Shown here in pieces: positions 15,001-40,694 of a stretch of 41,137 nt of DNA (positions are counted from its first letter, which is position 1; each line of letters starts with the position of its first letter). The notes beneath the pieces were generated by a model. It was not told where the DNA came from and searched no databases. It saw nothing but the letters and a program-made list of their open reading frames with translations. The position numbers were made by a program, and so were the translations under genes. The stretch comes from Ectocarpus siliculosus (taxonomy: Eukaryota; Sar; Phaeophyceae; Ectocarpales; Ectocarpaceae), in assembly GCA_000310025.1 (NCBI GenBank), contig FN649729.1, forward strand, positions 4,097,857 through 4,138,993, in the 5' to 3' direction.

Positions 15001-16202
15001 TGGGTTCTCGGCTGGGCAAGTCGGGGGCCTCGTTCATGCAGCAAGGCCTGGTGCTTGCCTTCGGAAACATCCTCAACGCTGCTCCCGTGGTTGCAGGTGT
15101 GTGCTTGTCCAAATGCTACAGTCGTATCCTAGACGGTGGCATTGTTCGCCGCCATGGTGTGTTGGTGTGTGGTTCGTTCACGGGTTCGGTTTTGATTTGA
15201 TTGGCTGACAAATGCTGTCCGGCGAGGCTGAGACAGCAGTACCATATGAACGAACAGTGTCGAAGAACAGCAGCGTCAGAGAAACAGGATCGTAGAGAGT
15301 TTCCTGCCTGATGATGTACGGAAGGGAGAGAGAGTGGCGGCGGCGGAGATAATAAAATCACGCCTAGAAGATTTCACTTCTGGCTAATGCACGGTGATCT
15401 TGGCGTACTTTTTCTCGGTTGTGGTTCGGTGGTTTGTGCTGTAGGCGTTATTTTTCGTGCAGGGGAACGGGGACACGAGTCTGTCGCACCGCAGGACCCA
15501 CACGACGGTCTCATCGTTCTTAGTCCACAGTTTAAGTGGCTCAAGAATGCCTTGCTCTTCACCCATTAACACACCCTCCCACCCAAACTTTACCCCTTTC
15601 AAGAACGCCTTCTCTTCACCCATCAACACACCCCTCCACGGGGGGTGATATCCATACGATAGATGGGATAGATGGGATAGATAGGATAATTTAGAGGACA
15701 TTTTTTTAGGCACCTTTGGCAAGGTAGGAGGGAACGGTTGGCCATCGGTGATCGATCCTGTGGGAACAATGCTCCGACCTTTGGACGACGGACGCGTGGT
15801 CAATGGTCTAACCGCTAACGCATGCAAAACATAAGTGTAAGAGTACGCCCCCCCCCCGTCCTACCCCTTCCGTCTACCCGACCCCGGATATGTACGAAAC
15901 GTGCAGTAATCTTCTACGCGGCCCTTGGGTCGTGGACCTACGGAGCAGTGCGGTTAGCGGACATGTTCGAGGCCAAGACGCGGCAGCAGGAGGGAGATCA
16001 CAAGCCCAGAGCCATCCGCACCCGGGGCGGGGGTGGGCACGACCGCAGCAGCAGTACCGGGGGTCCCGTGGATGACGACGGTAGTAGCGGGGAGGAGGGG
16101 GCCAAGGGCCAGTGGTCGGCGCGGTATCAACCGCCCGCCAACCCCGCCGCGACAAGCGGGCTTCTTCACAGGAGGGCGACTAGTAGGGATTGTCAAGCGT
16201 GA
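6020..16202 (+). CDS. NTT: TLC-family nucleotide (ATP/ADP-type) transporter
   Basis: This is a multi-spanning nucleotide exchanger of the plastid/Chlamydia/Rickettsia translocase type. Exons are 6020-6433, 7570-7851, 9613-9813, 10541-10660, 10885-11002, 12555-12630, 13206-13350, 13762-13839, 14561-14620, 14973-15096 and 15907-16202; all phases fit, giving 637 aa. The start is the first ATG after an in-frame TAG; residues 1-23 are a hydrophobic signal peptide, then a Ser/Arg-rich stretch to about residue 82. Family motifs are RDLKDTL (119-125), SELYSS (227-232), LTEVMWK (376-382) and KGKAAID (500-506). They hold the Lys, Glu, Glu and Lys that I recall as the four transport-critical residues of Arabidopsis NTT1. 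The C-terminal ~70 residues are hydrophilic, and the last part comes from a minisatellite that runs past the stop. Exchange of ATP for ADP is the likely activity, but the family also has proton-driven nucleotide importers, so the substrate is not settled. Intron 2 holds a Mutator-like element; introns 3, 5, 6, 8 and 10 hold other repeats. Confidence 0.95.
7850..7945 (+). repeat. 28-bp tandem repeat carrying the NTT intron 2 splice donor
   Basis: Units start at 7850, 7875, 7903 and 7931. Each begins CCG and the first three continue to GAGCTTTATT or similar. The first unit includes the real donor TCC|GTGAGT; the third repeats CCGTGAGTGTT exactly, and the fourth has CCGCGAGTC. The donor region has therefore been duplicated into the intron. 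Confidence 0.85.
8223..8492 (+). CDS. Short open reading frame inside the Mutator-like element
   Basis: An 89-residue frame starts at an ATG just inside the left inverted repeat. Its first half is acidic (GGDDDLLSDSSSVVEVEGG) and its second half basic, and it ends in TGA. I recognise no domain. The last ~40 codons overlap the dispersed repeat at 8429-8534, so at least that part is probably not protein-coding. The first ~55 codons could be a host exon fragment captured by the element, which is common in Mutator-like elements. This is a weak call. Confidence 0.2.
   Translation: MDIIGRKLPLGGDDDLLSDSSSVVEVEGGADDSTRLHANLFIALVNTHPFISYTKAPPPVLNTAVASKKLLSHKKNVSISLPSLHNCPY
8429..8534 (+). repeat. Dispersed repeat B, copy inside the Mutator-like element
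   Basis: This segment (TTGTTGTCACAT, then CTACCCAG, TACTGATCCAA and GGTCACAGGCTAAC) is alignable with 14184-14292 and, over its first part, with 29582-29645. The copies are diverged by roughly a quarter of their bases. Confidence 0.6.
9866..10275 (+). repeat. Degenerate GTT/GTC/GTG triplet tract in NTT intron 3
   Basis: The 410-bp tract is made almost entirely of T/G-rich triplets such as TTG, TCG, TGG and TGA with a clear 3-base period. It includes pure (TTG)n runs at about 9868-9888 and 9931-9950. The long open frames across it on both strands are by-products of the triplet period. Confidence 0.8.
11128..11204 (-). repeat. Poly-C-tailed dispersed repeat, copy 1
   Basis: The reverse complement reads TAGGGATGCGAGGTCAATGG, then TCTAACGACGATGGCATGC and, after ~25 bases, a C10 run. 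It lies in NTT intron 5. Confidence 0.8.
11611..11815 (+). repeat. 66-bp tandem repeat in NTT intron 5
   Basis: Three nearly identical units start at 11611, 11678 and 11744. Each runs GGCTTGTTTTACAACGTCGT, TGCCAAGCGACGAAAACCC, a variable GATGGCAAACACCG and a G-run. Differences are a few transitions and G-run length. Confidence 0.95.
12982..13193 (+). repeat. Poly-C-tailed dispersed repeat, three tandem units
   Basis: Units start at 12982, 13058 and 13133, each with GCGAGGTC, an ACGACTACGGCATG-like core and a C-run. The third lacks the TCAATGGTC part. They end 12 bp before exon 7 of NTT, so the C-run replaces the usual pyrimidine tract region. Confidence 0.85.
13478..13535. repeat. ~140-bp satellite, single partial copy
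   Basis: AAGCATCGACCGCGCAAACC, then GGCTGGCCGCTGAGAATGCG, matches the core of the units at 1869-2190 and 29120-29470. It lies in NTT intron 7. Confidence 0.6.
14184..14292 (+). repeat. Dispersed repeat B, copy in NTT intron 8
   Basis: It shares GTTGCTGTTGTCGTCACATT, CCCAG, TACTGGTCCAAC and CCGTGGTGACAGGCTGAC with the copy at 8429-8534, in the same orientation. Confidence 0.6.
15542..15640 (+). repeat. 58-bp tandem duplication in NTT intron 10
   Basis: Two units start at 15542 and 15600 (CAAGAAnGCCTT, CTCTTCACCCAT, AACACACCC). A short GATAGATGG microsatellite follows at 15657-15687. Confidence 0.8.
15786..15858 (+). repeat. Poly-C-tailed dispersed repeat, copy in NTT intron 10
   Basis: This is a well-preserved copy: GACGCGTGGTCAATGG, TCTAACCGCTAACGCATGC, AAAACATAAG, then AGTACGCCCCCCCCC. 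Confidence 0.85.
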
Positions 16203-28800: not shown

Positions 28801-31800
28801 ACGGGTAGCCTTATCTTAGTGATCGTATGCAGATATTTCGAATATTTTGAACAAGCGGCTTTTTTTTTTTGTTTTTCTTTCAGCCAAGGCCAATGGGGCC
28901 GGGAATCGCGGGTGGCCCCACCGCAGCGGCAGTAGTGGCTGCGAGCGAGGGGAAGGCGAAGAAGTACGGGCTGCTGGGCTTGCTGGGGGTCATCCGAATG
29001 ACAGATCCAGATCTCAACACCCTGGCTTTGGGATCGGACCTCACGACGGTGGGGCTAAACCTTGACAGCGCAGAGGTGAGAATTGACTCTGTCTATTCTT
29101 TGTTAGCGTGTGTCTTTCAGTGTGTCATCGACCGCAGGAAGCGGCTGGCCAAATGAAAAGAGGCCAGTGTCAGTGAGGCTGAAAACTTGTAAATTCTTCG
29201 AAGGCAATGATTTAGAACCCTGTGAAGAGGCGTCGTGGGGGAGCCTAAAACTAGATGCACTCTCCGGACTTTTTGTGCTGTGTTTTATTGTAGTAGACCG
29301 CACTAACCGGCTGACGAATGAATATATATATATATTTTCTCAGTGTGGCTAACAAATGAAAAACGCTTCTAAGGCCATGGTCTGGTCTGGGGTCCTATGT
29401 GTGTTGGGGTATTTCTTTGGCTGGCATCGACCGGGCTAGCCGGCTAATCAATAAAATCACGTCCGAGTTTTAGTGGGAAAGACGTACTATAGTAAATAGT
29501 GGTATATAGTAGTCACGCGAGTGTTTCCACGTCTTCTCGGTCAAGCATGGTTCGGAGTTTTGGAGATGAAGGAGTGGATGGGTTGTTGCTGTTGTTGTTG
29601 TTGTCTTCACATTAAAAATCGGTCCGATCTCTCTCTACCCAGTGCACTGTGATGAACATGGCTGTCGTGACATACAGCAATGCATGCGCCTACAAGGCGG
29701 CCTTTGTGACAGTACATGTCTATTAGACTTTTTTGTGCCTGTTGGGTGTTCGACTTGTCATGAAACATATTTTCCTGATATTCCCCCAGGAAGGTTTATT
29801 TGTATATCGACAGACCTTTTGAGAAATATGCTGCGGGAAGATCATAATTTGATGATAATTCCTGTAGCAGAAGGTTTAATTGTTGGTCGACGGAACTTTC
29901 GAATATATGCCGAGGGAATACAAAAACAATTTGATAACCCGATTTCACACTTTTGTTCTCCCTTGCTTGCTCGTGGCTGGAGGAAGGTTTGAGTGTTTAC
30001 CGGCGAACCTTTTGATAATAGGTGGATCTAATAGCTTGATTTGCACGCTTCTCTCTCCCCTGCTTGCTTGTGGGGGCGCGAACAGGTGTTGTACGCGTCG
30101 TTCGCGAGTCCGTGGGCAGAGGAGCCGGCGACACCAGAACCCCAGTTCACCCTTCCGTCGTGCTACTACCTACAGCCCCCGCCGTTGAAACCTATGCACT
30201 TGAAGAACTTCCAGCTCGAGACGTTGTTCTACATCTTCTACTCTATGCCGCAGGACGTGTTGCAGGCGAGTTCTCTCTTACTATAGTTCGTCGTCTTGAT
30301 TTGTTTTTCCGATGTGTGCTCCGGATGGTAAGAGTTTTGTTGCGAGTGCTGCAGAGGGGAAGGAAGCTACCCGCTCTTGTAAGGGTCTCGGTGTCGTATG
30401 TTTCATACCAACACCGACACTCAGTTTTCACCCCCCCCCCGCCTCTTGCATGCTCTGTCCTCTCGAGGACGTGTGGTCAATGGTCTAGTCGCTAAGGCAT
30501 GCAAAACATGAGAGAGTGCGCCCCCCCCCCCCCCCCCCCCTTTCCCCCCAAGTTTCCTTTTGTTTTTCCCTCCGACAGGGATACCCGGGGCAAGAGTTGC
30601 CCCCCCGCGAATGGGGGTTTCAATCCGTGGCGAAACTGGGGGTCAAGAGGGGCGGGGCCGCGGAAGGGAACGTGGCCCCCAACGGGGAAAATATCTACTT
30701 TGACCTTAACCAGTGGCAACCCCCGTTCTTCCCCGGGAACCTCCAAATAGAATGTGAGTCCAGCCCNNNNNNNNNNNNNNNNNNNNNNNNNNNNNNNNNN
30801 NNNNNNNNNNNNNNNNNNNNNNNNNNNNNNNNNNNNNNNNNNNNNNNNNNNNNNNNNNNNNNNNNNGTTTTTTTCCTCCCACCCCCCCCCCCCCTTTTTC
30901 CCCCCCCCCCCCCTTTTTCCATTTTTTTTCCTTTGGAGGAGGGGGGGCCAAGGGTTAAGGGGCAAAGGCAGCCAAAACAGGGGAGGGGGGCCCCCCCCCC
31001 CCCCCCCCCTCTTTCCTCCGATGTTTCGTTTTGTTTTACCATCCGACAGGCATACGCGGCGCAGGAGTTGCACGCCCGCGAATGGCGGTTTCAATCCGTG
31101 CTGAAGCTGTGGTTCAAGAGGGTCGGGCCCGCGGATGGGAACGTGCCCCCCAACGTGGAGTATATCTACTTCGACCATAACGAGTGGCAGCGCCAGTTCT
31201 TCGCCGGCAACGTCCAGATGATTGTGAGTCAAGCCCATCCCTAGCCAATCCTAACCCTCCATCCGTGCGGGATGATTGATTGCGAGTTGTTCGTGGCCCG
31301 CTGGTTGAGGGGGATCCGTCGTCTGCGTATCTGATTTCTGGCCTTCGAAGGGTTGGTGTTGCTCCGAATGAAGAGGTTTTGGAGTGGAAAGAGAGCGAGA
31401 GAGTGGTGCTGAAAGCTCTGTTTCAACATACACGTGTGTCGGGGGGGGGGGCACACTCATGTTTTGCGTATTAGACCATTGTATCTTCCACGTTTTTGTT
31501 TTGTCCTTTCACAAACACGACGAATTCACCTCTTTCCACAGACCGTAAGGCTGGGATAAAGTAACACATTTCTTGACGGTGGTGCATGACCAACCTGCGT
31601 TTATGTTATGCTACATGTACACCTCCACCTATTATTATTTTTGATGGTTCCGTCGTAGGGCTTGCATGACGTACAACGGCCGGGCAGTATATCTGTAACC
31701 GTTCTTGATACTGCAGCAGGCCGGACGTACATCACACCCTCACCACATGCGTCGCTCAGATTTCTTCCGACGCACCAGCAGCGACCAGGAAGGACTTGTT

Positions 31801-40219: not shown

Positions 40220-40694
40220 ACACGGCGATGTGCCACCAAGTCGATTCGCCCGCCCTTTGAAGCGGGCACCCGCTACAACGTAATCATGCAAGTTGATAAT
40301 TGCTATTATCTGTGCCAAGTGAGATAATTCACCGGTCTCCCTGTAGAGGGACCCAGCCCTGTAGAGGGACCACCGCCCACGACTATACAGCAAGATGCAG
40401 ATGCGGCGGTGGCGGTATTAGCACATGGCAGTGAGGCACCAAGGACCTTGCATCGTAGACGGGACCGAACGAATAGAACGCGCTACCACCGCTCCTGACT
40501 TCATCAGCGGGGAAACCCAGCAGAGAATGCATATTAGGTTGTCAGTCTTAAACAAGGGGTGACCACGCGTCGTCAACGGTCAACGGTCAATCGAGTAAGA
40601 CAAGCAATCGAAAGAGACGGAGGACGCGTGGTCAATGGTCTAACCGCTAAGGCATGCACACCATAAGAGGACGCCCCCCCCCCCCCCCCCCCCC
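40220..40694. other. Downstream flank of CFAP161 with a poly-C-tailed repeat copy
   Basis: This contains the CFAP161 3' UTR and, at 40618-40694, a repeat copy (GACGCGTGGTCAATGG, TCTAACCGCTAAGGCATGC, then GACG and C21). A tandem GTCAACGGTCAACGGTCAA lies at 40572-40590. No gene is seen. Confidence 0.65.

Follow-up and report, generated by a model that had tools for sequence, protein, structure and literature searches.

Several kinds of assembly fault resemble the one described here. Adjacent contigs that should overlap can stay unmerged because their end sequences disagree; such joins are called negative gaps in the passages on gap closing of the PBJelly paper (PMC3504050). Kelley and Salzberg (2010) reported that overlapping contig ends can be falsely duplicated, in some cases with exons, and the portions of their article that we draw on name haplotype divergence as the cause (PMC2864568). 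For Ectocarpus, the assembly sections of two papers state that version V1 was built from Sanger data and that V2 contains 11,588 gaps, with a contig N50 of 33 kb (PMC7386250, PMC11541908). Passages of a further paper describe Ectocarpus LINE families, RTE-X for example, as having several thousand copies each, often with a 5' truncation and commonly located in introns (PMC12477816).

Here we analyse a window of 41,137 nucleotides of the Ectocarpus siliculosus genome (contig FN649729.1, positions 4,097,857 to 4,138,993), in which the gene NOT2 is interrupted by 100 N. By its anatomy, this gap appears to be of the negative-gap kind, with the same unmerged overlapping contig ends as the PBJelly cases. 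The cases tabulated in that paper, however, trim only 1 to 43 bases, whereas the overlap in NOT2 spans about 370, and unlike in those cases a C run has garbled both ends and the copied sequence includes an exon (compared with the part of PMC3504050 cited above). The duplications of Kelley and Salzberg share with NOT2 the falsely duplicated contig ends including an exon, but in the text cited above they are put down to haplotype divergence, whereas the cause in NOT2 is stutter after a homopolymer. We do not claim that this cause is new to the literature. We counted six N runs in random stretches amounting to 111 kb of known bases, a gap rate similar to that which the cited sections give for V2. 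The repeat in the NOT2 intron resembles the Ectocarpus LINEs in abundance, 5' truncation and intron location, a likeness by description only; the cited passages of PMC12477816 do not mention C-run tails, and "tail-to-tail" there concerns other elements. A narrow literature search found no paper on C-tailed retrotransposons among those listed.

Results

The window holds a single N run, exactly 100 long, at 30767–30866. Local alignment of the 900-bp flanks pairs 30396–30766 with 30867–31236 (291 matches, 79 mismatches, 1 gap column, score 419) and stops exactly at both gap edges. Scored from edge to edge, the overlap reaches 497. Shuffling the base runs of the right flank gave at most 12 in 15 controls (15 shuffles were made for each gap studied), and reversing that flank gave 5. 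The overlap is therefore far beyond chance, and by edge-to-edge alignment the left contig's end and the right contig's start are one sequence, as in a negative gap.

A run of C divides the overlap. It is present as C20 at 30521–30540 in the left contig and as C19, a copy of the same tract, at 30991–31009 in the right contig. The left contig is clean 5' of the run, the right contig is clean 3' of it, and beyond the run each is garbled. On the forward strand, the clean intron stretch at 30396–30520 returns in garbled form at 30867–30990, an assignment that rests on the alignment, on the miscall pattern described below and on other copies of a repeat. Likewise, the clean intron end, exon and donor at 31010–31240 have a garbled counterpart at 30541–30766, which copies 31010–31236 and includes a false exon at about 30579–30751; here the alignment and the miscall pattern are joined by a Pfam comparison of the two exons. 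Aligned separately, 30541–30766 and 31010–31240 give 188 matches, 37 mismatches and 7 gap columns (6 of which are unaligned ends), and 30396–30540 and 30867–31009 give 104 matches, 39 mismatches and 2 gap columns. The original prediction had taken 30516–30753 for a corrupted copy of 30991–31223 and 30867–31010 for one of 30400–30540. Both pairs do align, up to the exact gap edges, and those coordinates are good to a few bases.

The way in which the copies differ shows what happened to them. Differing columns make up 37 of 225 in the part to the right of the C run and 40 of 124 in the part to its left. At all 77 of them the miscalled base equals a neighbouring base of the clean copy (37/37 on the right, 40/40 on the left). 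To the right of the run, 35 of the 37 miscalls repeat the preceding base of the clean copy; to the left, 35 of the 40 repeat the following base, which is the preceding one for a read running leftward. Hence, the bias on both sides of the run is toward the base already read. When the same letters were shuffled over these sites 5000 times, the fit was never matched on either side. If the roles are swapped and the garbled copy is taken as true, the fit falls to 7/37 and 4/40, which is the level of the shuffles. With a plain local alignment of the left part, 32 of 37 miscalls match the lag-side neighbour and all 37 match a neighbour on either side. On this statistical evidence, the neighbour rule with its shuffles and swapped roles, the differences between the copies are sequencing errors, as expected of a negative gap.

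The miscalls are homopolymer stutter and not mutation, because the neighbour rule is what molecules one base out of step produce after a homopolymer. The type of error points to Sanger chemistry. Corrupted copies beyond the poly-C tract had been predicted, and alignment and neighbour rule bear this out; the predicted loss of read quality has to be refined, since the miscalls reflect a stutter of one base and not simply a drop in quality. The neighbour rule also supports the proposed true order, 30400–30540 followed by about 31010–31240 with one exon, and does so only with the clean and garbled roles as assigned here.

The clean exon at 31050–31223 on the forward strand translates into 58 codons in phase 0 and matches the Pfam family NOT2_3_5_C (PF04153) with 37.8 bits. 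Its garbled copy, taken as 30579–30746, matches no Pfam family at E values up to 10. The preceding coding sequence, at 30095–30265 on the same strand, ends in TTGCAG at 30265 and underlies a PF04153 match at C4:4127951–4128124 (30095–30268 of the window). When a stretch of this exon is joined to the clean exon, the match to PF04153 reaches 86.5 bits. We placed the junction by sequence and by aligning the joined exons to yeast Not2, which left no gap at the junction. Judged by sequence and protein junction, the intron between them (30266–31049) seems to be of the GC-AG type, with GCGAGT following the TTGCAG at 30265 and the acceptor AG at 31048–31049.

PF04153, the C-terminal domain of NOT2/NOT3/NOT5, was found at two places in the genome, in the window and on C2 near 8.47 Mb. 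The Not3 N-terminal domain (PF04065) gave four matches in the same genome search, in which weak matches may be missed; all four lie on C2 beside the other PF04153 gene and none at the window gene. Because the Not3-domain matches adjoin the C2 gene, the window gene is NOT2, as it had been named before, and the C2 gene is NOT3/NOT5-like. NOT3 was considered for the window gene and rejected: in PDB a yeast Not2 chain ranks first and chains of CNOT3 and CNOT2 come next, and with Not2 and CNOT3 side by side it was the search for the Not3 domain that decided. A reading frame of 251 codons (30489–31244) is uninterrupted across the two exon copies and the Ns between them, because the offset between the exons is 471 = 3 × 157. 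Gene calls may thus report an over-long fused exon just as well as a duplicated one. A search against Rfam gave ten matches, all far below the gathering scores and nine of them on the C/G-rich stretch, which we take as chance.

The C run itself is the tail of a retroelement. Genome repeat matches, together with a reverse transcriptase upstream of a longer copy, identify 30451–30514 (forward strand) as the 3' end of a truncated LINE copy, and the C20 run is its tail. The repeat has 41 listed matches in the genome, the window's own included (40 of 1372 first-look candidates were scored). In most copies read, the 3' end is constant and leads into a C run, which is often interrupted; two (L043 and L070) have none there. 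The upstream sequence that copies share is between 73 bp and 1230 bp long, the latter being where the test ended; this is the variable 5' truncation of a LINE. Upstream of the long copy L036, the one copy tested in this way, an RVT_1 match of 112.3 bits lies in L109. The LINE reading frame next to the tail has no match in Pfam, NCBIfam or PDB, and reverse transcriptase appears only further upstream. A tRNA-like look of the repeat was dropped as an idea after ARAGORN detected no tRNA in the window.

The other copies of the repeat also tell which intron copy is the true one. All 39 match the clean copy with a better score than the garbled one. Of the 20 differing sites that could be scored, the majority of these copies agrees with the clean sequence at 18, with the garbled one at none and with neither at two. 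The 39 copies had been retrieved by searching with the clean copy, which makes them less than fully neutral and a weaker witness than Pfam.

The LINE 3' end is present three times in the window, at 15769, 30441–30540 and 40620–40694, with runs of C10, C20 and C21. The C21 run is likely to be a trouble spot for reads too. At 31441–31467 there is a LINE 3' end on the opposite strand together with a G11 run, 81% complementary over 27 nt to 30501–30527; the NOT2 exon hence lies between two inverted LINE tails.

The same fault recurs elsewhere in the genome. We examined 103 loci: the window, 39 loci of the repeat, 40 random 3-kb stretches and 23 loci with C/G runs, the last representing 27 listed runs of at least 22 that cover C1 up to about 2.9 Mb. 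Among these loci there are 17 gaps of exactly 100 N, one in the window, six at repeat loci, two in random stretches and eight at C1 runs. Clear edge-to-edge overlap is present at 10 of the 17 (the window, L032, L045, L084, L085, L086, L093, L094, L102 and L104), including both of the gaps in random stretches. Overlap is doubtful at three (L034, L092 and L101) and absent at four (L010, L012, L013 and L096), of which L010, L012 and L096 end at or near a C/G run. A gap of 100 N is therefore not diagnostic by itself. Overlap was called clear when it spanned at least 80 columns and scored above three times the control maximum, a cut-off chosen after the scores were seen. Loci L021 and L056 were refetched with longer flanks as L084 and L085, and each is counted once. 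The figure of 10/17 is not a genome-wide rate, because apart from the two random gaps all were drawn from sets selected for the finding, the repeat or the C runs. An earlier dovetail scoring was discarded as too lax: its controls across gaps reached up to 810 from shared repeats, and it returned "no" for all 17 gaps.

Miscalls equal to the lag-side neighbour exceed all 2000 shuffles on the left side of L032 and at L084, L085 and L045. In L085 the opposite and the lag-side neighbour occur about equally often (99 and 96 of 129). To the right at L032 there are 11 mismatches, a count that shuffles reach too. At L034 the neighbour test spans only 31 columns, and the edge-to-edge score is 38 against a control maximum of 47; a score that rewards neighbour matches gives 331 against 27 to 101. 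Neighbour counts obtained with this last score were set aside, since the score favours them. A shorter gap of 38 N at L103 shows, judged by eye, the same kind of garbled copy.

On C1, 25 of the 27 listed C/G runs of at least 22 are within 600 bp of an N run, against 3,747 of 111,333 random positions (3.4%). Most of the longer N runs are cut by the ends of our loci, and N may stand for withheld sequence, so not all of them need be assembly gaps. Long C runs are common in this genome, where a pattern of 22 C can be placed 3067 times forward and 3147 times in reverse, with overlapping placements counted separately.

Discussion

We consider it almost certain that the NOT2 gap joins overlapping contigs that were left unmerged, garbled after the C run of a truncated LINE, and that the genome has one copy of the sequence. 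A truncated LINE copy with a C-run tail sits in the intron of NOT2, a short way upstream of the exon. Reads crossing the run from either side would then be a mix of molecules one base out of step, and the base caller would have written many bases as their neighbour. The outcome would be two contigs, each clean as far as the run and garbled past it. With ends agreeing at only about 68–84%, the assembler presumably left them unmerged, and the scaffold join probably received the default spacer of 100 N. The true genome would read from about 30396–30520 through a single C run into 31010–31240, and should be about 471 bp shorter than written. Edge-to-edge alignment and neighbour rule agree with the original prediction that the gap is an unmerged overlap, most likely without missing DNA. 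Apart from a possible error in the length of the C run, no real DNA appears to be lost.

One could also take the assembly as written, with its two copies, and propose a real tandem duplication of about 370 bp in which one half of each copy has decayed by mutation. Mutation, however, has no reason to copy neighbouring bases, let alone in opposite directions across the C run, and codon positions are hit alike (12, 10 and 8 mismatches in the right part, with 7 outside the exon). Such a repeat would also have to start and stop exactly at the gap edges, and the same pattern recurs at unrelated gaps. We therefore reject a duplication, chiefly on the neighbour rule, as very improbable. Two haplotypes or alleles assembled side by side are, if anything, still less probable, even if haplotypes are a known cause of duplicated overlapping contigs in diploid assemblies according to the cited parts of Kelley and Salzberg (PMC2864568). 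Allelic differences would not switch copies at the C run, nor would they obey the neighbour rule, as all 77 differences do.

A milder alternative accepts the overlap and holds that the true C run is clearly longer than 19–20, so that 471 bp is too large by that amount. Slippage leaves the length of the tract uncertain, and runs up to C38 are found elsewhere in the sampled loci. On the other hand, the overlap does not stop at the tract but runs on into unique sequence to either side of it, and the lengths in the two contigs are nearly equal (C20 and C19). We regard a clearly longer run as unlikely, with a chance that is still appreciable.

The reading of an unmerged, stuttered overlap means that the duplicated exon is not real and that its cause is ordinary. 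The assembly may thus present its users with a duplicated or over-long NOT2 exon that the genome lacks. There is a modest surprise in the signature being present at 10 of the 17 sampled gaps of 100 N and in the C run being a LINE tail. As an artefact the NOT2 gap is ordinary, and it is the recurrence that is useful. Edge-to-edge overlap combined with the neighbour rule needs no reads. Such a test could flag false duplications and garbled stretches at the gaps of old assemblies before gene models are built.

Our results point to the C-run tails of LINEs as one cause of these faults in this genome. We lean, with some reservation, toward a LINE family that tends to end its copies in C runs and not in A runs, the long tails of which break the assembly and make the artefact systematic. 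If this is true, many gaps of 100 N would mark garbled DNA that is falsely duplicated and in part read as coding sequence, and a LINE acquiring C-run tails as it inserts would itself be unusual. A second, related 3' end with C runs is present at several gap loci (L016, L092, L094, L102 and L106), and more than one repeat subfamily may be involved.
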